From the NCBI GenBank assembly GCA_030693335.1, contig JAUYAU010000001.1:77796-141795 (forward strand): a stretch of 64,000 nucleotides of DNA. Reading direction: 5' to 3'. The position numbers and the translations under genes were made by a program. Source of the stretch: Sulfuricurvum sp. (lineage in GTDB: Bacteria > Campylobacterota > Campylobacteria > Campylobacterales > Sulfurimonadaceae). A model generated the notes under the pieces. It saw only the letters and a program-made list of their open reading frames with translations. It ran no database searches and was not told the origin of the DNA. Positions 27,495-63,051 of the stretch are shown here, piece after piece (the stretch's first letter is position 1; every line of letters begins with the position of its first letter).

Positions 27495-28544
27495 TTAAAA
27501 AAATTCAATTTCACCTTCTTCCATTGCTTCTGGAAGTATCAGACCTATGACCTGTTTAATACTGATGCTTGTAGGCTGATGAATGTGATGGATGTTTTTC
27601 ATGGCCATACTCTCTATGGAGAACCGTTTCATGTAGCGGTCCATGTCGATACTGATTGAATCAAACAAGGCTAAAATGTTATCAGGATTCGATTGGTACA
27701 GAGCAACAAATGTGTCCATATTTTGAACGATGGTCAACGAGAGCTCTTCCATACTATGTGCCAATGGATCTAAAAACGGGGTGTAGTGGAGCAGGATGTT
27801 TGCAACTTTACCAAATTGCAAACCTGCTGATTTGATGAGTTCAAGGTCTTGTTCATCATAAAAACGTCCAAGCAGTTCAGGGATTTCGTTGAGTATTTCT
27901 GCCATTTCCTCACAATCGTCATGGTTAAACAAAACATTTTCAACCCCTTCATCTTCATCGCTTGCAAAATAATCATTTAGGAGCGGTTCTGAAATTTGCG
28001 GTTGACTGTGCGCCAAAAGATTTTCGACCTGCTGATGTTTGACGGAAACGGTATTGACTTGTGCCTCCAATAGGCGAATTTGTTTTTTGAGTCTGCCGCG
28101 TTCAATGTTTAGCATTTCAAAAAGCTCAATATTGCTTTTTTGCGTATCAGCATCACGACATACAGGATAAAGAATATTAAGCAAATCTTGGTGCATGATA
28201 GGTTTTAGGATAAAACTGCTGATTCCGCTGCGAATCAAATTGATCAAAATCTCCGATTCGTTATGTGCGGAAATGGCGATTACTTTTTGATCCGGATTGA
28301 TTTCACGCATATGACGTATCATCTCAATTCCATTCATCCGAGGCATATTGATGTCGGTGATAATAATGTCATAAAAATGACGGTTGTACTTATCCAGTCC
28401 ATCTATGCCATCAACGGCAATGTGCAGTTTTTCGAAAAAGGGTTCTAAAAGCAAGACCGTTTCTTCTCTTAGCTTTACATCATCTTCTACGTAAAGTACG
28501 TGCAGTTTACTGGAAAATTTATAAACATTTTTTGTGGTAATCAT
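27495..28544 (-). CDS. Response regulator with unrecognised C-terminal domain
   Basis: 349 residues. Receiver at 10-130 with LYVEDD, phosphoacceptor in IIITDINMPRMNG, AISAHN and FILKPIM. A coiled coil (about 145-180) connects to a helical C-terminal domain of about 162 residues beginning LLNDYFASDEDEG and ending GEIEFF. I do not recognise this domain. It aligns without gaps to the C-terminus of the protein at 60725-61738 (74 of 162 identical by eye), with ILLHYxPFLD, DMDRY, RFSxESM and NxHHIHxPT as the best conserved blocks. Its start overlaps the upstream kinase stop (ATGA), so the kinase at 28541 is the likely phosphodonor. Confidence 0.82.
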   Translation of the reverse strand: MITTKNVYKFSSKLHVLYVEDDVKLREETVLLLEPFFEKLHIAVDGIDGLDKYNRHFYDIIITDINMPRMNGIEMIRHMREINPDQKVIAISAHNESEILINLIRSGISSFILKPIMHQDLLNILYPVCRDADTQKSNIELFEMLNIERGRLKKQIRLLEAQVNTVSVKHQQVENLLAHSQPQISEPLLNDYFASDEDEGVENVLFNHDDCEEMAEILNEIPELLGRFYDEQDLELIKSAGLQFGKVANILLHYTPFLDPLAHSMEELSLTIVQNMDTFVALYQSNPDNILALFDSISIDMDRYMKRFSIESMAMKNIHHIHQPTSISIKQVIGLILPEAMEEGEIEFF

Positions 28545-29731
28545 GATACTACTTCCATTTTATTGATAGGTATTTTTATGCAAAAGTCTGCTCCACCAAA
28601 AGCCGTATTATTTGTCACGCTCAGTGTTCCCTCTATGTGATGTTCTATAATCGTTTTGGACATATGCAGTCCCAGTCCCGTTCCGTTTTTTTTGCTTTTT
28701 GTTGAAAAATAAGGGAGAAAAATCTGATCCACAATGGATGAGCTGATCCCTCCTGCATTGTCGGCAATGTTAATGTAAACAAATTCTCCGCCTTGCTTGA
28801 CGGATATGCGCAGTTTTGGATTTTCGATCTCTTGTTCGCCAAAGGCATCTTTTGCATTGTTGATGATGTTGATGAGTGCCTGTTTGAGTTCGTTTTCATA
28901 GGATGTCAAAATAATAGAATCGTCATGGTTTATTTTCAAATCGATATTAAGCAACGCTTTGTCCAATAATGCCATCCTGCATACGCTGTCTATCAATTCA
29001 GAGGCTTTAAACGTGCTGAGCCCTGTTTCTGGACGATAAAAATTACGAAAATCATTGACGGTTTTAGAAAGGTAATCTGCTGATTCTTCTATGCGTTCAA
29101 AGGCATTGCAAAGATCTGCTTGTAATTGCTCGTATGGATTTTGTGTTTTTGTATAAACATCTAAGTCTATTCGTGTTCGCAAGGTTGCCGTAATGGCAGT
29201 AATGACTGCCAGAGGCTGGCGCCATTGATGGGCAATCATAGAGATCATATCGCCGGTTTGGGCTAGTTTCGACTGCTGAATAAGAATGTTTGTTTGAAGC
29301 TCATGTTCCTGAGAGAGTTTTTCGTTAAAGATTTGTGTTGATTGCGAGTCAATGCTCTCTTTTAAAACAGATGCTGCTTGGTTGGCTATAGTGATAAATT
29401 TTTGTGCACTGATGGGTTTAATCATAAACAATGAGACATCATTTTTTATGATTGAAAAGAGATGCGGGGCATCTTTTTCGCTGATGATTACCGAAAAGAG
29501 TTGATTCTTATCGTAGTTTTTGATATTTGATATCAGCTCTTTCGCGTTCATATTTTCTAGATTGAAGTCAATGTAAATAATATCAAAACGTCCTATCTCG
29601 TGAATATTCAAAGCATCTTCGGCAGAATGGACAATGTCAATTTCATCAAAAACATCGTTTTCTACGAGATTGAGTTCGTGTACCGCATCTGGAGTACTTG
29701 TAACAATTAATGCATTGAGTTTTTTAGTCAT
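28541..29731 (-). CDS. Histidine kinase with N-terminal pseudo-receiver
   Basis: 396 residues from the ATG at 29731; the longer frame to 29851 would overlap the upstream GGDEF-EAL gene. The N-terminal 125 residues have the receiver fold pattern (ALIVTSTPDA, IIYIDFNLENM, VIISEKD, FMIKPISAQ), but the acidic pair is replaced by Thr-Ser, so Mg binding and phosphorylation are doubtful. Then come HisKA (SMIAHQWRQPLAVIT near 187) and HATPase (NAKDAFGEQ, DNAGGISSS, GTGLGLHMSK). Cytosolic. It lies five bases after the GGDEF-EAL gene and overlaps the following regulator, within one operon. Confidence 0.86.
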   Translation of the reverse strand: MTKKLNALIVTSTPDAVHELNLVENDVFDEIDIVHSAEDALNIHEIGRFDIIYIDFNLENMNAKELISNIKNYDKNQLFSVIISEKDAPHLFSIIKNDVSLFMIKPISAQKFITIANQAASVLKESIDSQSTQIFNEKLSQEHELQTNILIQQSKLAQTGDMISMIAHQWRQPLAVITAITATLRTRIDLDVYTKTQNPYEQLQADLCNAFERIEESADYLSKTVNDFRNFYRPETGLSTFKASELIDSVCRMALLDKALLNIDLKINHDDSIILTSYENELKQALINIINNAKDAFGEQEIENPKLRISVKQGGEFVYINIADNAGGISSSIVDQIFLPYFSTKSKKNGTGLGLHMSKTIIEHHIEGTLSVTNNTAFGGADFCIKIPINKMEVVS

Positions 29732-29736
29732 TATTT

Positions 29737-31920
29737 TCAAGACTCCGTAGGATTTAGTATATTTTTTGTTTTGACATATTTTTGTAAAAAAACTTCTATT
29801 TGGGATGCCGGCATTGGTTTGGCATTGTAATAGCCCTGTATCGCTGAACACCCTTTTGATACCAGATAGTTTTGCTGTTCTTGCGTTTCGACACCCTCAG
29901 CTATGATGTCAAATTGCATGCTTTTGGCTAAAAATATGATCGATTGAACGATTGCTTCACTGTTTGGGTTACCGGGGATATCACGGACGAAAGACTGGTC
30001 GATTTTGAGTTTATGTATCGGAAGTTTTTGCAAATAAGAGAGTGAAGAATAGCCTGTTCCAAAATCATCGATGGAGAGATGAATTCCGACATCTTTGAGT
30101 CTTTGCAGCATTCTGATCGCTTCATCGGCGTGCTTCATCGTATACCCTTCCGTAATTTCAAGCTCTATCCAATCGCTTTTACATTTCGCGTCTGCGAGTC
30201 TTTGGATGATGCTCTCTACAAAATTCTCTTTTTGCAGTTCTATGGCAGAGAGGTTGATGGCTACTCTTCCCGGTTTATAGCCTTGCGCATACCACTGTGC
30301 TATTTGAGAGGTTGCTTGGGAAAATACGAACTCGCCGATCTTGTGTATCAGTCCTGCTTCTTCGGCTATGGGGATAAAAACAGCGGGAGAAATAAATCCG
30401 TTTGGTGTTTTCCATCGTATGAGCGCTTCCACTCCCAACACTTTGTTCTCGACGGCATCGATTTGCGGCTGGTAGTAGACTTCAAATTCTTTTAGCTCCA
30501 ATGCGGTTCGAATATTTTTTGCCATCATCATGCTGTACAGTGTTTTATCGGTCATCTCTTTGTTGTAAAACGTATACGCATTGCGTCCTTCGTCTTTGGC
30601 ACGGTACATCGCCGTATCCGCATTGCGTATAAGAATTTCAGCGGTATCGCCATCATCAGGATAGATGCTGACTCCGGCACTGAGGGTTAAATGGAGGTGA
30701 TGGTCATCGATATCAAACGGTTCATCCATGGCTTTTACCATTTTACCCGCAATCTCTGCGACTGCGGAAATGTCTGTTATGTCTTCGAGTAAAACGGTGA
30801 ATTCATCTCCCCCGAAACGGGCGACGGTATCCTCGCTTCTTAGAATTGCAGAGAGTCTATGGGCTAACAGCTGGACAATTTTATCCCCTGTTTCATGACC
30901 TAAAGAGTCATTTATTTGTTTAAAACGATCCAAATCTATGAACATAACCGCAAGTTTTTTTTGGGAACGCTCTACTTTTTTCATCGCATGATTCAGCCTG
31001 TCCATATACAGCACACGATTTGGCAAATCGGTGAGTGGATCATGTTGTGCCTGATACCCTAGCTCATCCCTGGCTGCTTGAATTGCATTCATTGCGTCTT
31101 TTTGTGCAGTGATGTCAGAATATGCCCCCAGGATTCCGACAACATTCCCATTTGAATCCATCAAAGGTACTTTGGATGTTGACAGCCACATCTGGCTTCC
31201 ATCTTGTTTGGTTTGTTTTTCCTCAAAATTGAGCTTTTTTATGCCGCTTTTGATCACTTCTTGATCGTCTTTTATGTAGTCTTTTGCCTCATTTTTCCAT
31301 GAAAAATCATAATCGGTTTTGCCGATAAAATCTGCTTCGCTCTCAAGCCCTGCATCTTGTGCAAAAAGACGGTTACAGCCTAAAAAACGGGATTGCCTGT
31401 CTTTCCAAAAGATACGGATTGGGACGGTATCGATAATTCTTTTTAGGAGCTCTTTGTTTTCATCCAAATCTTTCTTGAGCTCTTTTGTCAGAAGAATCAC
31501 CTTTTTATCATTGTTAATGCTGATTGCAGTGCTGATGAAACTGTTCAAAAGATGTTTAAACTCAGGTGGTTTGGGAACGAATTTGCTAATGCCGATTTCG
31601 ATAAATTCTCTAAAATACTCCATTTCTTCAAATGCGGATATCACGATAATCGCTTGGTGCGGATTTATTTCCCGAATTTTTCGAGAGAGAGAGCGTCCGT
31701 CTAGTTTGGGCATCATTATATCGGTAAGGACGATATCGAACTGCCCATTTTTATAGGCTTCCAGCCCTTCTAGTCCATCGTGTGCCAAGGTGATCGATTT
31801 AAAAAATGGGCTAAGCATTTCCTTGGTAGATTCAGCAATTTCCTGATCATCTTCAACATACAAAAGATCTAAAGTTTGGCACTGCTCGAGCATCTCCTGT
31901 ATCAAATCAGACAGTTCCAT
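29737..31920 (-). CDS. REC-PAS-GGDEF-EAL protein
   Basis: 727 residues. The ATG at 31920 is chosen over the longer frame because the protein then begins MELSDLIQEMLEQC, matching MELSHLIQEMFAQC of the hybrid kinase at 37933. Receiver (LLYVEDDQEI; LTDIMMPKLDG; FVPKPPE), PAS (about 170-290), GGDEF (VARFGGDEFTVLL with RSED I-site five residues before), EAL ([30 protein letters not shown]). Both catalytic motifs are intact, so it could make or degrade c-di-GMP depending on receiver state. It overlaps the giant kinase gene by 14 bases. Confidence 0.9.
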   Translation of the reverse strand: MELSDLIQEMLEQCQTLDLLYVEDDQEIAESTKEMLSPFFKSITLAHDGLEGLEAYKNGQFDIVLTDIMMPKLDGRSLSRKIREINPHQAIIVISAFEEMEYFREFIEIGISKFVPKPPEFKHLLNSFISTAISINNDKKVILLTKELKKDLDENKELLKRIIDTVPIRIFWKDRQSRFLGCNRLFAQDAGLESEADFIGKTDYDFSWKNEAKDYIKDDQEVIKSGIKKLNFEEKQTKQDGSQMWLSTSKVPLMDSNGNVVGILGAYSDITAQKDAMNAIQAARDELGYQAQHDPLTDLPNRVLYMDRLNHAMKKVERSQKKLAVMFIDLDRFKQINDSLGHETGDKIVQLLAHRLSAILRSEDTVARFGGDEFTVLLEDITDISAVAEIAGKMVKAMDEPFDIDDHHLHLTLSAGVSIYPDDGDTAEILIRNADTAMYRAKDEGRNAYTFYNKEMTDKTLYSMMMAKNIRTALELKEFEVYYQPQIDAVENKVLGVEALIRWKTPNGFISPAVFIPIAEEAGLIHKIGEFVFSQATSQIAQWYAQGYKPGRVAINLSAIELQKENFVESIIQRLADAKCKSDWIELEITEGYTMKHADEAIRMLQRLKDVGIHLSIDDFGTGYSSLSYLQKLPIHKLKIDQSFVRDIPGNPNSEAIVQSIIFLAKSMQFDIIAEGVETQEQQNYLVSKGCSAIQGYYNAKPMPASQIEVFLQKYVKTKNILNPTES

Positions 31921-34900
31921 TGGAATCCTTTGTTGGCATGGATAGGGTGAATTTTGCTCCATTGGCCGTATTTTCAACATGCAAGGAGCCTTTACAGTGC
32001 TCTTCAACGATGGTTTTGCTCATGTACAGACCCAAGCCGGTTCCATTGTGCTCATTTTTGGTTGATACATAAGGTAAAAAGAGGGTGCTTATAACACTTG
32101 AATCAATTCCCCCAGCATTGTCTTCTATCGTGATAAAAGTTATGTCATCTTGATGATTGGACTTGATAGTAAGCGTTGGATTGACGATTTTTCGCTCTTT
32201 GAAGGCATCCTGCGCATTTTTAATCAGATTGAGGAACACCTGTATCATCTCATGCTCATAGGTTAAATAGGATACATCATTGGTGTAATCGGTGACAATT
32301 TCTACTTTATCATTTTTGAGAGTATGGCGGATCAATCTCAGTGCCTTGTCTATGATTATGGAGCTTTTTGTCAATGTTTTTTCTTTGTCAGGTCTGAAAA
32401 AATCTCTAAAATCGCTGATGGTTCGAGAGAGATATTGTACTTGGGTATCGACGTCACCCAAGCTTTGCTCTATCCCCTGCAGTGTATACTGCTCGAGTGC
32501 AATGTTAACGCGCTGTTTGTTCATCAGCGCACTGATAACAGAGAGCGGCTGGCGCCACTGGTGTGCAATCATGGAGAGCATTTCCCCCATTTGCGCTTGA
32601 CGTGTCTGCATCATGAACAGCTTGTCTTTGATGTTTCGCTGAGTTACATTTTCTTGAATGGTGACGAAATTGGTCACTTCACGATTCGTATTTAAAATCG
32701 GAAAAATAGTAGAGGAACAGTCGAGATTGTCTCCATTTTTTATTTTATTGATAATCGTACCGCGCCATATTTGCTGTTTATGTGCAATCGTGTCCCACAG
32801 ATCTGTGTAAAACTCTTTTGGATGGATGCCCGAACAAAAGATGCTCATCTTTTTACCAATAAGCTCCTGCTCAAAATAGCCCGTCATGATGAGGGATTGT
32901 TTGTTTGCATACTCTATCACCCCTTCAGTGTTCGTGATGATAGTGCTAAAAGGGTTTTGATCCACCACTTGGGTTAGACGTGAAATTTCGGCTTTGGCTT
33001 CCTCGGAATTGGTGATGTCTTGTATCGTCCCGGAAATCTTTTGTACATCGTTCTCCCAGTAAGTTTGCGCTTTTTGATGGACGATTTTTTCATTTCCATT
33101 CGCCGTGATGATACGATGCCGGATGTTGTATCCGCGATTGCCATTCAATGCTTTTTGGACAGCATTTTGAATCAAAGCTACATCATCGGGGTGTACATGC
33201 TCAATAAACCACTCATGGTCGATAATTTGACTAAACGGTTCAATCTCGTAAATACGGTAGACTTCCGCACTCCATTCAAGATCTTCTGTGTCGGCATTAT
33301 ATTTCCAGCTTCCCAGATGGGCTAGCTCTTGAGCCTTATTGAGCTCTTCGGAACTCTTGGTGAGGGACTCATACAGGAGTGTATTTTTGAGAACGATGGA
33401 AGCCTGTGTCAGTAGCAGCTCCAGTGTCCGTACCGATTCTGAACTAAGCGGTGTTGCTATCGACTCATTTTCCAAATACAGCACCGCACTGATACTTCCC
33501 TCAAGAGAGCTCACAATCGCACTGCAAGAAGCGGGTTTATGCGTTTGCAAGTACGGATCATTGAGAAAGATATCAGATGCTAATGGATTATCCAGAATAA
33601 GGTTCTGTTGAGCGTTTAGAGCATACTGGATCACGCTTTGAGGTATGAGAGGATATTGGGCGAGCAAAAAACCGCACATTTCGATTTTTCCTTGTGCAAA
33701 ATCAATGGTTGCTTTGGTGTAATAGTCGTTGCCGTATTTTAGGATCAAAATAGCTCTGCTTGCGGTAGCATTCTCCAAAATCGTTTGCATCAAAGTTTCA
33801 ATGAGTTTGGTGGAATCCAATGTTTGGGAAATCGCGTTAAAAGAGTCAAGAATACTTTGAAAATTTCCAGATTCTGTTTTCAATGATGACCGTTTGGAGG
33901 AGACACTGGAAACGATTTCAGATGACGATATGTATTGAGCGGGAGGGATTAAACCGCTGACATGTGTTGCGATTTCATAGGCACCCCAGGCATTTAGCCC
34001 GACAACTGCTTCATTGAGATAAAAGCGGCTCAAATCGCTGTAAAACATAGAATCCCAAAACCGATAGGCACACAGTGCAGTCAATGCCACAAAATAGGAA
34101 CTTTTACTCTCTTGTGCCGCACGGATGGCATCATCGTAGATACGGGCTACCTCCCATGTGTTCGCAATTCCTTTCATCCGCTCTGCTTTGAGGAGAAGTC
34201 TGCCGGATTTGAAATTCTTTTTAGAGATTTTCATGAACGATTCACATTTATTCAAATCAGAAGTTAAAAGTTCCTGTTCATCAACCGTTAATGGGGTTTT
34301 CTTACCCATGAGCAGGAGCGCACGTACAAAGAGCAAACGCAATTTTGGAAACATGACTACTTCATTTGCCGTTGTATGAACATACTTTGTATAATAGTCC
34401 AATCCCTCATCAAACTCACCTCTCAGGAGGCATATTTGTGCTTTGAGCAATGCGTACCATGCCAGAGCAGGATAAAATTTATCTTCTTCCCACGCTTTTA
34501 TTGCCTTTTCTTCTTCTTTGGCATAATCTTGAGTGTGCTCTTGCAAAGATGCAGCCGTTTGAATCAAAATATTGAAAATAGCAATCATTTTGGTATCGCC
34601 GGACGCTAAAATAAAGTCACTGTTTTGGGAGGCACTGTGCCTGAATTTCTCGAGTGAAAAACCTGCTAGATACTCGGAAAAGAGCATTAAAAAGTTTGCC
34701 CAGGTACCAAAAACAATATCGCCGTTTATTTTAGATTGATGGAGGCTTTTTTGGTAATAAGTGACATTGCTTATGAGCGGTTTGACATAAGGGTTGATGA
34801 AATTCGCCATAAAATTGTGCACTTTTGGGAGCATGATTTTATCGTTAAGCTGTTGATTGAGTTTGATTGCCGCGTCTCCAAAAGCATACCCTTTGGTATA

Positions 34901-37690
34901 GTTTTTTTCACTTGCGAGTTGACCGCCTAGCAAAACATAGCCAAATGATGACTCAGTCGTATTCCCATTGGCAAACGATTGTGCCACAATAGTCAAATAA
35001 GCCCATTGCATCAAGCTGACATCTGCGAGATAATACGCTGCTTCCCAATAATCGATTAACAGCGAAGCAATGATGTTGTTTTTTGAATTGTTTATGAGAG
35101 GAAGGGATAATACTTTTTTGGTTTCCAAAAAAAGAGGATGTGATCTGACTTGATCATTGAGAATTGCAATCGTATTTTCCAGATTGGGCTTGTCGCTTGG
35201 AACATTTACTTGCAGCTCTTTAAACAATGCATTTCCGGCTTCAATCAGTGTTGTAAAATTCTTGCCCTGCGTAACACAAATATTTTTAAGGACTCGGAAA
35301 CACGCAACACGCTCATCAATCGTTTTTGAAACCAAAATCAAATACTGTATCTCTTTTACTGCTTCATCGTGTTCTCCATTGAGGTACAGAATACGGCATT
35401 TTAGCTGCGAATAAGCATACGCATCACTGCGCTGGCTCTTCCACAGTTTTTCATCAAACAAATGCTCATCAACCCATTTTACCAGCTTACATGCATGAAT
35501 ATAGGAGCCGTTATTCACCATCTCTTGCAATGCGGTGATGTTAAGCAAAAAAAGTTTTTTTGAAAATTTCGCCCCATTATAGGTTTGATTTAGATGATAC
35601 ACAGCGCTGTTGCACTCTTTATATTCACCACTCTCAAAGGCTTTGAGCAAATAGTGGCCGATTTTATAATGAATCCGTTTCTTTATTTCGTTATTCATGC
35701 TTTGATATACATGATTTTGAATTTGATCGTGAACGAAGGCATACTCTTTTTTGGTAAGCTCAATGAAGCCATTGGATGCAAGTTCTTCTATAAGATTGTT
35801 ATTCATGCCCAATGAATGCATCATGGTGAGGGTGAATTTTTTGGCATATCGGCTTGAAAACAGGGCTAAATAGCACAGATACATCTGTTGTTGCGGGTTT
35901 AACTGTTCGAATCTTTCGTTGATAATGGTCGTAATATTGGTGTTGGCACTGTATAATTTGATTCTATCCAGAGAGTAGTTCCAGTGGCCTTTTTCAAATA
36001 CAATGTATTTTTTCTGGACAAGTTCTTCGACAAGAGTTTTAAAATAAAACGGATTTCCTAGCGTTTTCGCGTGTAACAGAGCCCCTAGCTTATGGATTGT
36101 GTTCTTGTTGTCATCCAAAACTTCTTCCAATATCTGTGTGATGTTTTCTTGAAGCAATGGTGCGACTTCGATTTCTACCAGACGGGATTTATCGTAAAAA
36201 ATATCTTGGATCTGTTGTGTATCCCCCTCATCATTTCGATAGCTTCCGATAATGTGCAAATACGGATTGTTGCTGTTCAAAAGTCCTTTTTTAATCAAAT
36301 TCAGTGATTCAGGGTCCGCCCACTGTAAATTATCCATAAATAAAATCAAAGGTGATGATTGCGTAGCGACAGAATTAAATAATTCTTTAAGGGCAAAGGG
36401 GAGTTTTTGGCTTAAATTATCAATCGGGTCAGCCACATTTGAACGTACTGAGTGCAAAATCGGTTTGAGCTCGGTAAAAAGATAGCTGAGAATTTGACTG
36501 CTGGATACAGAGAGATTCAGTTTTTGCTCATGCACTCCTCGCGTCAGCATCCATGCGTGCAACTGTCCCATAAGTTGTTTTAGGGAACTGTAGGGCAAAG
36601 CGACTTTGTGTGAATAGAATTTTGCTCTTAAGACGTTAAAAACACTCAAATCGGCATAAGCAAAGAACTCTTCGATCAGCCGCGTTTTACCCACCCCTGA
36701 ACTGCCCGATATGAGGACAGATATAGGGCCGTCGATCATCATACGATTGAGTGCTTTGTCCAAAAGCTGGAGCTGGGATTCGCGCCCGTATAAACGCTCA
36801 CCGATACACTTGAGTATTCCATCGTGCATGGCGATGGTAAAATCAGGAATTTCGTTTTTTTCGTTGAGCAGTCGCAGGCACTCCTCTAAATCATGAATCA
36901 GCGATTCATCGCTTGCATAACGCAACTCAGGTTTTTTGGCTATGAGTTTGTTGACAATACGTGATACGACATTGGGAATCGCAGGGGACAATTCGTCCAG
37001 AGACTGGGGCATGAGGGCGACTTGTTTATGGACCAGCTCATAACGGTTTTTTACAGTATACGGAGCTTTTGAGCTCAATAGATGATACAGGGTCATCCCA
37101 AAACTGTACAAATCGCTGCGAAAATCGATGCGATTTTTGGTACGTCCGGTTTGCTCAGGCGACATGTAAAGCAGGTTTCCCGAAGTTCCTACATTGATAT
37201 CGGTGTTAAAGTAAAAATTGTTATCGACAACACTGTAGCCATAATCGATGAGCATAACCTTTTGCGTTGAGGGATTGTATACGATATTTTTTGGATTGAC
37301 ATCTGCGTGAATGATGTGTTTTTGATGCAAATAGTGCAAAGTTTTGGCGACTTTTACAGCAATCATGAGCGATTCTCGCAGTTCAAATGTACGAGTGCTT
37401 AGTATGTCATGCAAAGAAATTCCGCCAATGTCCTCAAATACGATGCAATATTCGGATGGCAGGGTCACCACTTCTATAATTTTTGGGATACAGCATCCAT
37501 TCAGTTTTGATAATATCTGATACTCTTGATTGAGTTGGGCTGAAGCCAAACGACCGGCATCAGTGGATTTTAGCATCTTGATAATCACTGCTAAGTCATC
37601 TACTGATCGTTTGGCCCGATAAACGATAGACTCCTCATTTTCATGAAGCAAATCCAAAACATGATACTTTTTAAACAAGGTTAATGCCAT
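31907..37690 (-). CDS. Ser/Thr kinase - AAA ATPase - GAF - PAS - histidine kinase (HstK-type)
   Basis: 1927 residues, the largest gene here. Domains in order: protein kinase (about 10-270; IIHADVNPKNIVYN catalytic loop, LIDYGYS in place of DFG), AAA/NACHT-like ATPase with Walker A SGSSGVGKT near 330 and ILFMDNLQWADPES, a long helical TPR-like region (about 600-1250), GAF (about 1295-1440), two PAS domains (about 1460-1680), HisKA (SMIAHQWRQPLSVIS near 1710) and HATPase (DNAGGIDS, GTGLGLYMSK). This multi-module kinase type is known from cyanobacteria and some Proteobacteria; targets are unknown. HAD instead of HRD in the catalytic loop is usual for the type. It starts the leftward operon with a GAGG ribosome site. 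Confidence 0.92.
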   Translation of the reverse strand: MALTLFKKYHVLDLLHENEESIVYRAKRSVDDLAVIIKMLKSTDAGRLASAQLNQEYQILSKLNGCCIPKIIEVVTLPSEYCIVFEDIGGISLHDILSTRTFELRESLMIAVKVAKTLHYLHQKHIIHADVNPKNIVYNPSTQKVMLIDYGYSVVDNNFYFNTDINVGTSGNLLYMSPEQTGRTKNRIDFRSDLYSFGMTLYHLLSSKAPYTVKNRYELVHKQVALMPQSLDELSPAIPNVVSRIVNKLIAKKPELRYASDESLIHDLEECLRLLNEKNEIPDFTIAMHDGILKCIGERLYGRESQLQLLDKALNRMMIDGPISVLISGSSGVGKTRLIEEFFAYADLSVFNVLRAKFYSHKVALPYSSLKQLMGQLHAWMLTRGVHEQKLNLSVSSSQILSYLFTELKPILHSVRSNVADPIDNLSQKLPFALKELFNSVATQSSPLILFMDNLQWADPESLNLIKKGLLNSNNPYLHIIGSYRNDEGDTQQIQDIFYDKSRLVEIEVAPLLQENITQILEEVLDDNKNTIHKLGALLHAKTLGNPFYFKTLVEELVQKKYIVFEKGHWNYSLDRIKLYSANTNITTIINERFEQLNPQQQMYLCYLALFSSRYAKKFTLTMMHSLGMNNNLIEELASNGFIELTKKEYAFVHDQIQNHVYQSMNNEIKKRIHYKIGHYLLKAFESGEYKECNSAVYHLNQTYNGAKFSKKLFLLNITALQEMVNNGSYIHACKLVKWVDEHLFDEKLWKSQRSDAYAYSQLKCRILYLNGEHDEAVKEIQYLILVSKTIDERVACFRVLKNICVTQGKNFTTLIEAGNALFKELQVNVPSDKPNLENTIAILNDQVRSHPLFLETKKVLSLPLINNSKNNIIASLLIDYWEAAYYLADVSLMQWAYLTIVAQSFANGNTTESSFGYVLLGGQLASEKNYTKGYAFGDAAIKLNQQLNDKIMLPKVHNFMANFINPYVKPLISNVTYYQKSLHQSKINGDIVFGTWANFLMLFSEYLAGFSLEKFRHSASQNSDFILASGDTKMIAIFNILIQTAASLQEHTQDYAKEEEKAIKAWEEDKFYPALAWYALLKAQICLLRGEFDEGLDYYTKYVHTTANEVVMFPKLRLLFVRALLLMGKKTPLTVDEQELLTSDLNKCESFMKISKKNFKSGRLLLKAERMKGIANTWEVARIYDDAIRAAQESKSSYFVALTALCAYRFWDSMFYSDLSRFYLNEAVVGLNAWGAYEIATHVSGLIPPAQYISSSEIVSSVSSKRSSLKTESGNFQSILDSFNAISQTLDSTKLIETLMQTILENATASRAILILKYGNDYYTKATIDFAQGKIEMCGFLLAQYPLIPQSVIQYALNAQQNLILDNPLASDIFLNDPYLQTHKPASCSAIVSSLEGSISAVLYLENESIATPLSSESVRTLELLLTQASIVLKNTLLYESLTKSSEELNKAQELAHLGSWKYNADTEDLEWSAEVYRIYEIEPFSQIIDHEWFIEHVHPDDVALIQNAVQKALNGNRGYNIRHRIITANGNEKIVHQKAQTYWENDVQKISGTIQDITNSEEAKAEISRLTQVVDQNPFSTIITNTEGVIEYANKQSLIMTGYFEQELIGKKMSIFCSGIHPKEFYTDLWDTIAHKQQIWRGTIINKIKNGDNLDCSSTIFPILNTNREVTNFVTIQENVTQRNIKDKLFMMQTRQAQMGEMLSMIAHQWRQPLSVISALMNKQRVNIALEQYTLQGIEQSLGDVDTQVQYLSRTISDFRDFFRPDKEKTLTKSSIIIDKALRLIRHTLKNDKVEIVTDYTNDVSYLTYEHEMIQVFLNLIKNAQDAFKERKIVNPTLTIKSNHQDDITFITIEDNAGGIDSSVISTLFLPYVSTKNEHNGTGLGLYMSKTIVEEHCKGSLHVENTANGAKFTLSMPTKDSNGTV

Positions 37691-60724: not shown

Positions 60725-61738
60725 TCAAAAGAACTCTATCTCGCCCGCATCTATTTGATCAGGTGCAAACATCGTTATAATCTGCCGAATGCTTAGTGTG
60801 GTAGGCTCGTGAATATGGTGTGAATTTTTCATCACCATGCTTTCAACGCTAAAACGCTGGATATAACGATCCATATCGGAACTTACCGCATCAAAAAGCC
60901 TTAAAATTCCCTCTTCACAGCACTCTAATGTTTCCATAAACTCTTCCGTGTGATCGAGCAATGCCGTAGAGAGTTCAGACATGCTTCCAGCGAGTGTATC
61001 TAGAAATGGGGAATAATGAAGCAGTATCGATGACGCATGAGAAAAGATATTGGCAATGCGTATAACTTCATTCTTATCTAAATGGATGACAGCGAGCGAA
61101 AGGCGCTCGGAGACTTCACTGACATACTCAAGCAAATCATCGGCATCATCAGTTCGAAAGAGAATTTTTTCTTCACCGTCATCTTCATCTGCAGCAAAAT
61201 ACTCTCCTAAAAGGGTATTGTCTATCGGTAGAATAGCTTGATTTTCTACTATAGGAATTGCATTACTAATATTACAATGTTTAGTATAGTCCTCTCCATG
61301 CATTGTTTTATTATATTCACGGATTACACCTGAAAAGTTCGCGTCAAATAACTCGACTGCTGTAGCAAACTTAACGTCTGAATGGACAATACCATTGTCA
61401 AGCAGTATGCTAACGACAGAGTTTTTCATCCCGGAACATATCTGGTAAATATCATCGAGCAGTATGCAGCGTTCGGAAAAGAACTTTAACATAACCATAA
61501 CAACAGGGCATTGACCCGGTTCCTTTTCCCTACGGAGAACCCCGATAAAATAGTCCAAAACCCGTGAACCAAAATGCTTGATAAAAAAAATAGGATTTAT
61601 TCCATTCCTCTTCAAAACGCTTTGCACTCGCAAATTTTGCAGCCATTTATTCAAGACGTCGGCATGATGTGTTTTAAGAAGATCTGCTAATTCATCACGT
61701 TTATTGGTATTAATTTCAATATAAAATATTCTACTCAT
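60725..61738 (-). CDS. RsbRD_N-like + unrecognised C-terminal domain protein
   Basis: 337 residues, soluble. The N-terminal 150 residues are helical and resemble RsbRD_N-type sensor modules (ELADLLKTHHADVLNKWLQN), a weak assignment. Residues about 176-337 are the same unrecognised domain as in the response regulator at 27495: LLGEYFAADEDDG, ILLHYSPFLD, DMDRYIQRFSVESM, NSHHIHEPT and terminal GEIEFF, alignable without gaps. It follows a stand-alone receiver gene (63 bases) in the GGDEF-receiver transcript. Here receiver and domain are separate, there they are fused, implying that the receiver controls this domain. Confidence 0.75.
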   Translation of the reverse strand: MSRIFYIEINTNKRDELADLLKTHHADVLNKWLQNLRVQSVLKRNGINPIFFIKHFGSRVLDYFIGVLRREKEPGQCPVVMVMLKFFSERCILLDDIYQICSGMKNSVVSILLDNGIVHSDVKFATAVELFDANFSGVIREYNKTMHGEDYTKHCNISNAIPIVENQAILPIDNTLLGEYFAADEDDGEEKILFRTDDADDLLEYVSEVSERLSLAVIHLDKNEVIRIANIFSHASSILLHYSPFLDTLAGSMSELSTALLDHTEEFMETLECCEEGILRLFDAVSSDMDRYIQRFSVESMVMKNSHHIHEPTTLSIRQIITMFAPDQIDAGEIEFF

Positions 61739-61801: not shown

Positions 61802-62188
61802 TTACATACTTTTAATCGAAATGGTCTTTGCATAACTTTTCAGCTCTTGACAAAGAAAATTTTTATCAATAGGTTTACGTATATAGGAGATCATTCCTGC
61901 ATCTGTTATCTTGTCTTCGATATCCACTTCAGCCATTGTAGTTACCGCTATGATTATTGTATCCACATAGCGTTCTTTGATTTGTTTTGAAGCTTGAAAC
62001 CCATCCAATCGAGGCATCATAATGTCCATTAGGATAATGTCGGGACGTATTTTCTCACATTGATCAACCGCATCCTGGCCATCTATGGCTTCATGTATCT
62101 GAAATATTTCCAAGTCATGACACATTGCTTTGAGTAAATAACGATTCATTTCACAATCATCAACGATTAGCAGTTTTATTTTACTCAT
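61802..62188 (-). CDS. Stand-alone receiver (CheY/DivK-like)
   Basis: 128 residues from the ATG at 62188, which overlaps the GGDEF gene stop (ATGA). Single receiver domain: LLIVDDCEMNRYLL, phosphoacceptor in ILMDIMMPRLDG, AVTTMAE, YIRKPID. No output domain. As the gene lies between a diguanylate cyclase and the GEIEFF-domain protein, one or both may be its targets. Confidence 0.9.
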   Translation of the reverse strand: MSKIKLLIVDDCEMNRYLLKAMCHDLEIFQIHEAIDGQDAVDQCEKIRPDIILMDIMMPRLDGFQASKQIKERYVDTIIIAVTTMAEVDIEDKITDAGMISYIRKPIDKNFLCQELKSYAKTISIKSM

Positions 62189-63051
62189 AGACTTGCCTGC
62201 ACATCGATAGAGGAACTGCCATACACACAAACCCGATTACGTCCTTCATCTTTTGCCTGATACATCGCTTCATCTGCGCGTTTGACTAAGTCTGTGACAC
62301 AAAAAATATCAGAGGCAAATTCGGCTACGCCGATACTGACGGTAACGAGTACTTCTCTTCCCTCTTTTTCCATATCCGATGAAACCATAACGCATTTTTC
62401 AATTTCGCATCGAAGACGTTCTGCCAGCCAAGCCGCATGATGCCCATCGGTCAAAGGGCATAGTAGCATGATTTCCTCACCTCCATAGCGCGCCACCGTA
62501 TCGGTTTCACGAATTAATTCATTGATGAGTATTGCGAGCTTTTTTAAGACGATGTCACCCGTATCATGTCCATAGGTATCATTGATATTTTTGAAGTGGT
62601 CAATATCAATCATCAGAATGGAGAATGCAAGATCGTAACGTGCCGCTTTTGAAAATTCTTCTTCGAGTTTTTGATCGAGATAACGGCGGTTGCTTATGCT
62701 CATCAGCGGATCGGTAATGTTTTCGATTTCAAGAGTGTAAATGCGTTTGATGTCACGAGCCGTCTGAAGGGAAAGCGTACATACTAAAAAAACAAATAAG
62801 GAGCCTAGAAAAAGGACGATGCAAATAATTTCTCTGCTTGAAAAATCATTTTGTGCTCGAAACTGCAGTGCAATCACGATGTATGTGGCAATAAAAAATA
62901 AAATCATACCGGAAAGAATTTGCCACAGTTTGCGTATAGAGCCATGGGGAAGTTCGTGCATCAGTTTTTTAAGAGGGATAAGTGTGGCCATTAGTAATAC
63001 AATGCCAACAATGTCAAGATAATTGATAATAGTATAAAATAATTGATTCAT
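62185..63051 (-). CDS. Membrane GGDEF diguanylate cyclase
   Basis: 288 residues. Four hydrophobic helices in the first 110 residues (YLDIVGIVLLMATLIPL; LSGMILFFIATYIVIAL; IICIVLFLGSLFVFLVCTL), then a GGDEF domain (DPLMSISNRRYLDQKL, MIDIDHFKNINDTYGH, VARYGGEEIMLLC). GGEEI keeps the catalytic Gly-Gly-Glu-Glu but has Ile in the last position, a tolerated variant. RETD five residues earlier is an inhibitory site. No sensor other than the membrane part is seen. Confidence 0.9.
   Translation of the reverse strand: MNQLFYTIINYLDIVGIVLLMATLIPLKKLMHELPHGSIRKLWQILSGMILFFIATYIVIALQFRAQNDFSSREIICIVLFLGSLFVFLVCTLSLQTARDIKRIYTLEIENITDPLMSISNRRYLDQKLEEEFSKAARYDLAFSILMIDIDHFKNINDTYGHDTGDIVLKKLAILINELIRETDTVARYGGEEIMLLCPLTDGHHAAWLAERLRCEIEKCVMVSSDMEKEGREVLVTVSIGVAEFASDIFCVTDLVKRADEAMYQAKDEGRNRVCVYGSSSIDVQASL

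Follow-up and report, generated by a model that had tools for sequence, protein, structure and literature searches.

A helical output domain with a conserved acidic tail, recurrently linked to chemotaxis genes in Campylobacterales

Two proteins encoded in a window of Sulfuricurvum DNA (the whole stretch analysed, 64,000 nucleotides, from an assembly of 2.17 Mb in 18 contigs with Sulfuricurvum as its nearest relatives) share a C-terminal helical domain that appears to be undescribed, judged by the libraries and papers searched. The explanation that fits best, held here with moderate confidence, is that it is an output domain of Campylobacterales serving accessory chemosensory pathways, placed under receiver or sensor control and docking by its tail on a chemotaxis protein, likeliest a CheY-type receiver. 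Somewhat less credence is given to the proposal that it defines a phylum-restricted chemotaxis output family, through which signals from ordinary histidine kinases enter chemosensory pathways via a conserved docking tail that a minimal CheZ also carries.

The first protein, P0001 (349 aa), is encoded on the minus strand at 27495..28544; the plus-strand reading of this segment contains 11 stops, so the ORF belongs to the minus strand. According to its translation, Pfam, and a full-protein AlphaFold2 (AF2) model, it comprises a receiver (residues 16–125, Response_reg E=4.4e-22), a long helix (118–180), a flexible linker (181–205), a helical output domain (ca. 206–340), and a disordered acidic tail (341–349) ending in GEIEFF-COOH, the codons of this motif lying at 27498..27515 (minus strand). 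The output domain with the preceding linker (residues 183–349, delimited from alignment A4 of 72 members and AF2) occupies 27498..27998 (minus strand). E20, D21, D22, D64 (within TDINMP), S93, and K114, read from the sequence, mark the N-terminal domain as a receiver. The gene overlaps by 4 bp that of a histidine kinase (28541..29851, minus strand; a weak receiver, HisKA, and HATPase_c in Pfam), which is likely the cognate kinase of P0001. The second protein, P0002 (60725..61738, minus strand; 337 aa), has an N-terminal helical input module (residues ca. 20–150) and the output domain (ca. 194–337), also with the tail GEIEFF; by BLASTP and alignment A4 the domain and its linker (residues 171–337) span 60728..61228 (minus strand). 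A Pfam scan gave no receiver domain in P0002, and a stand-alone receiver of 128 aa is encoded just upstream (61802..62188, minus strand, ATG at 62188; Response_reg E=3.7e-24), its gene overlapping by 4 bp that of a GGDEF protein (62185..63051, minus strand; E=5e-45 in Pfam) in the same apparent operon.

The C-terminal ca. 165 residues of the two proteins are homologous far beyond chance, as judged by sequence comparison: BLASTP aligned these parts with 82/187 identities (44%, E=3e-49), and their 144-aa cores are 44% identical with no relative gaps in a MAFFT alignment. A preliminary description, which had counted by eye ca. 74 identities in 162 gap-free positions, listed motif blocks common to both proteins, and reported a receiver fused in one and separate in the other, was borne out on each of these points. 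Both genes lie among those for kinases, GGDEF and EAL proteins, with HD-GYP and GGDEF neighbours. The segment 22343-41773 of the window is densely packed with histidine kinases and GGDEF/EAL proteins, and includes a 1927-aa protein (31907-37690) that reads as kinase/ATPase/PAS/histidine kinase.

Sequence searches of Pfam, NCBIfam, PHROGs, and PDB with P0001 and P0002 returned nothing convincing on the output domain, and Pfam and NCBIfam scans of 72 members individually gave no convincing match on it either. A weak PHROG match (phrog_17741, E 1.3e-4) falls in the N-terminal module of P0002, outside the domain, while the best PDB profile matches, designed or coiled-coil helical bundles, were judged compositional and not true relatives. 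The AF2 model of the domain is good and all-helical (mean pLDDT 84, pTM 0.78); Foldseek found no match to it in PDB below E=0.5, with neither CheZ nor a four-helix HPt among the 50 best. The earlier failure to recognise a known family therefore holds for sequence and fold alike. A by-eye suggestion of a degenerate HPt, such as CheA P1, was rejected on these fold matches and on the lack of Hpt among the 25 of 85 Pfam families listed for the 72 members.

In the genomes sampled, the family occurs in a part of Campylobacterales. A single-sequence search found the domain in 24 of 100 relatives, mostly of the same genus, and profile searches in 59, then 63, of 299 Campylobacterales genomes (ca. one fifth), a single genome having as many as 13 copies; the genera include Sulfuricurvum and Sulfurimonas. 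In a phylum-wide draw it was present in 18 of 200 genomes, every match being inside Campylobacterales. The profile search also revealed five copies in the Sulfuricurvum genome studied here, so that the two copies noted at first are real but incomplete as a count, three much more diverged ones lying outside the window. The set collected comprises 90 non-redundant members and is biased towards Sulfuricurvum.

In all architectures the domain is C-terminal. It follows a receiver and a long helix (P0001 type), a receiver with PAS or an unassigned middle region, PAS-PAS, two receivers (L106), or the N-terminal module of the P0002 type. In one protein, L108, a receiver, the P0002-type module, and the domain are fused, which supports the pairing of P0002 with the neighbouring receiver (60.7–62.2 kb), as the preliminary description had supposed. 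The same module begins L252 (G000:C8:330334, same genome), a hybrid histidine kinase as read by eye, and the module is therefore taken as input and the shared domain as output. Of the original reading as a receiver-controlled output or sensor module, the output part is thus upheld by a domain that is always C-terminal with a varying input partner, while the suggested metal site finds no support across the family (see below). The segment common to P0002 (residues 1–155; 61273-61738, minus strand), L252, and L108 is helical and unannotated, and resembles a sensor domain absent from Pfam. Three other proteins of this genome (L213:8161-9474, L214:17434-18741, L215:7406-8725) have the arrangement receiver-X-domain, the middle region of ca. 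120 residues resembling by eye a degenerate RsbW-type ATPase; there was no Pfam match for it in the two of its proteins scanned.

A survey of gene neighbourhoods revealed a recurrent linkage to chemotaxis genes, which had been overlooked at first, as had the size of the family and the near-absolute conservation of its last residue. A core che gene (cheA/B/R/D/W, cheV-like, or cheZ-like) lies within five genes of 38 of the 90 members, as against 0 of 384 control genes from 20 arbitrary 20-kb stretches of the members' genomes; with chemoreceptors counted too, the values are 44/90 and 25/384. The respective Fisher p values, 1e-31 and 1e-19, ignore shared ancestry, and a tree of the members was therefore built. 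On this tree the linkage label changes 17 times, at least nine of the changes being forced by well-supported branches, so the linkage is recurrent and does not reflect one inherited locus. The association of the family with chemotaxis genes is well supported.

The commonest direct neighbour is cheB, adjoining 19 of the 90 members, with cheR often near, and a histidine kinase gene lies directly upstream of 22/90, P0001 included. In most sampled Sulfuricurvum genomes the P0001 orthologues closely follow cheR, a PAS/MCP protein gene, a kinase gene, cheD, and cheB. Further members are found in cheW-cheA-cheR operons of Sulfurimonas and relatives, in MCP-cheW-cheV-like-cheR-cheB operons (L098, L107, L115, L228), directly upstream of cheA (L221), and, in deep-branching families, beside cheB (L222, L223). 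The L215 operon of the genome studied here reads cheR-receiver-cheZ-like-cheY-cheA-cheW-(89 aa)-cheW-parA-domain protein. A small protein of 87–94 aa recurs between cheW and cheA (L215:9930-10199, L094:6479-6742); by eye it is possibly STAS-like, with no Pfam match in the two examples tested. A gene for a ParA-like ATPase, which may serve the placement of the system at the pole, directly adjoins the domain gene in two distant che operons (L215:8745-9488, L223:3075-3887).

No core che gene occurs within five genes of 52 of the 90 members, both window proteins included, and several members sit in large kinase or c-di-GMP clusters, so some of them may have no part in chemotaxis. These settings, and the position of both window copies among kinases, GGDEF, and EAL proteins, favour a general two-component scaffold, in which the domain would bind receivers or kinases, its own or foreign, within kinase/c-di-GMP clusters, chemotaxis being one use among several. 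We regard this as unlikely, though the best of the alternatives: the family is strongly and recurrently enriched near che genes, and members away from them may act in trans on chemotaxis proteins encoded elsewhere.

The tail of the domain is highly conserved. The exact C-terminal Phe is present in 88 of the 90 members, and nearly all conform to [DE]-[ILMF]-[ED]-[FL]-F-COOH, with DDIFDF as a minor form; position 2 of the last five is I/L/M in 60/70 and F in 5/70. Both the domain and the full-length AF2 models give the tail low confidence, i.e. disorder, as expected of a linear motif, and in two members (L098, L107) an extra copy is found in the linker of the receiver domain. It is not a generic motif of many proteins in this genome, where the only long ORFs ending in phi-[DE]-F-F followed by TAA/TGA are those of three domain proteins, the other matches being spurious short ORFs.

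The tail recurs, moreover, in a second protein of the same operons. At five loci (L215:13791-14183, minus strand, 130 aa, in the genome studied here; L107:7289-7699, minus strand; and L098, L115, and L228) a protein of ca. 130 aa is encoded with an invariant QYxDxxxQ, which as AXXYQDXXXQ fits the CheZ signature AXX[FY]Q-DXXXQ (PMC7750401). It matches Campylobacterota CheZ in hhalign (E=1.1e-4, probability 56%) and has no convincing Pfam or NCBIfam match. Its tails read ..DDDGIEFF in the present genome and ..SIEFF, ..DISFF, ..SLEFFE, and ..EIEFF elsewhere. That these two proteins, unrelated in other respects and encoded in the same operons, share the tail suggests that both dock on the same partner. 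Classical CheZ binds CheY through its C-terminal segment, and by this analogy CheY-type receivers are the most likely and most economical candidates.

CheR or CheB would be the main alternative partner, given that no gene adjoins the family more often than cheB. In E. coli chemoreceptors the pentapeptide NWETF recruits either enzyme, and a tail of this kind would tether them and put the adaptation enzymes under kinase control. The pentapeptides, like the tail, are acidic with Phe last, and cheB and cheR lie as close as described above, but their rule, x-[FWY]-x-x-[FWY]-COOH, demands an aromatic residue at position 2 of five (PMC7390727), where the tail mostly has I/L/M. Moreover, the chemoreceptors of the same genome have C-termini without such an ending, while the CheZ-like protein, with no need of CheR, has it. 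An identification as a CheR/CheB pentapeptide was therefore rejected despite the final Phe, and tethering in general is judged slightly less probable than the scaffold.

Within the helical body the best conserved positions among the 90 members (P0001 numbering) are an aromatic residue at 304 (W/Y/F in 90), D300 (77), H319 (72), Q331 (68), and S328 (66). The spacing of D300 and the aromatic residue, which is that of D to Q in CheZ, and the chemotaxis context would agree with a phosphatase or phosphate sink acting on phosphorylated receivers, with a D-x-x-x-[WY] helix in place of the DxxxQ of CheZ. Such an activity is improbable, as the position of Q carries no amide, the similarity of the domain and CheZ profiles is negligible (hhalign probability 4%, E 0.009), and CheZ is absent from the best structural matches shown by Foldseek. 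The reading as a divergent CheZ was likewise rejected: the profile comparison is negative, no fold relation was detected, and the real CheZ-like protein is a separate neighbour. A metal-binding sensor using NxHHIHxPT, proposed at the outset, is very improbable: the His-rich HHIH block is strongly conserved among P0001/P0002 orthologues but specific to that branch, and family-wide only its first His is largely kept (H319), the second being Y/H/F and the third D or H.

According to the explanation preferred here, that of an output domain docking on a CheY-type receiver, the histidine kinase would phosphorylate the receiver of P0001, while in P0002 the input module, perhaps together with the receiver encoded next to it, would replace the fused one. 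The signal would pass from the receiver to the helical domain via the long helix 118–180 of P0001, and the input would alter how the helical domain is exposed or how it oligomerises. The flexible acidic tail, [DE]-phi-[ED]-[FL]-F-COOH, would then dock on a chemotaxis protein, likeliest a CheY-type receiver, much as CheZ docks by its C-terminal segment, and the kinase signal would thereby reach swimming or chemosensory control. Since the domain lies repeatedly inside chemotaxis operons, ordinary sensor kinases can probably feed the chemotaxis machinery. If true, the family would connect two-component with chemotaxis signalling as a modular bridge. It also offers a short, testable docking motif and a hypothesis for the steering of swimming by kinases from outside chemotaxis. 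Free-living Campylobacterota such as Sulfurimonas and Sulfuricurvum are reported to have chemosensory classes in addition to the ancestral F3, and in a survey of Campylobacterota chemosensory clusters some genes were marked only as unknown or unrelated (PMC9321776). The domain family is a widespread candidate for a missing component of such non-F3 clusters, and it would name many proteins that at present are recognised only as response regulators or not at all.

Judged by the libraries and papers searched, the domain appears to be new, and so do its tail and its linkage to chemotaxis, while the kind of protein, a response regulator or an accessory chemotaxis protein, is already known. With CheZ, the phosphatase of phosphorylated CheY, the family shares the chemotaxis context and a helical body with a flexible C-terminal extension, and the CheZ-like minimal protein of some shared operons carries the tail of the domain; it differs in having DxxxW/Y instead of DxxxQ, and in relatives an ordinary CheZ is present as a separate protein. 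ChePep has a receiver at its N-terminus, as have many architectures described here, and localises CheZ. It is a chemotaxis protein restricted to Campylobacterota (PMC11237671), reported from Helicobacter and Campylobacter, whereas the domain occurs in just 63 of the 299 Campylobacterales genomes; a search for a poly-Glu pattern, made with ChePep in mind, matched only a sigma factor. CheO of Campylobacter jejuni, found only in Campylobacterota, Sulfuricurvum included, is similarly a chemotaxis protein without a recognised domain and interacts with CheA (PMC9665402). It belongs, however, mainly to host-associated genera, a taxon distribution unlike that of the domain. The NWETF pentapeptide resembles the tail in being an acidic C-terminal motif with a final Phe on a flexible linker, but the tail has an aliphatic position 2 and is borne by signalling proteins, not by receptors. 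Finally, P0001 is formally one of the response regulators with an uncharacterised output, from which the family differs in that P0002 carries the same output without a receiver and that this output recurs in che operons.
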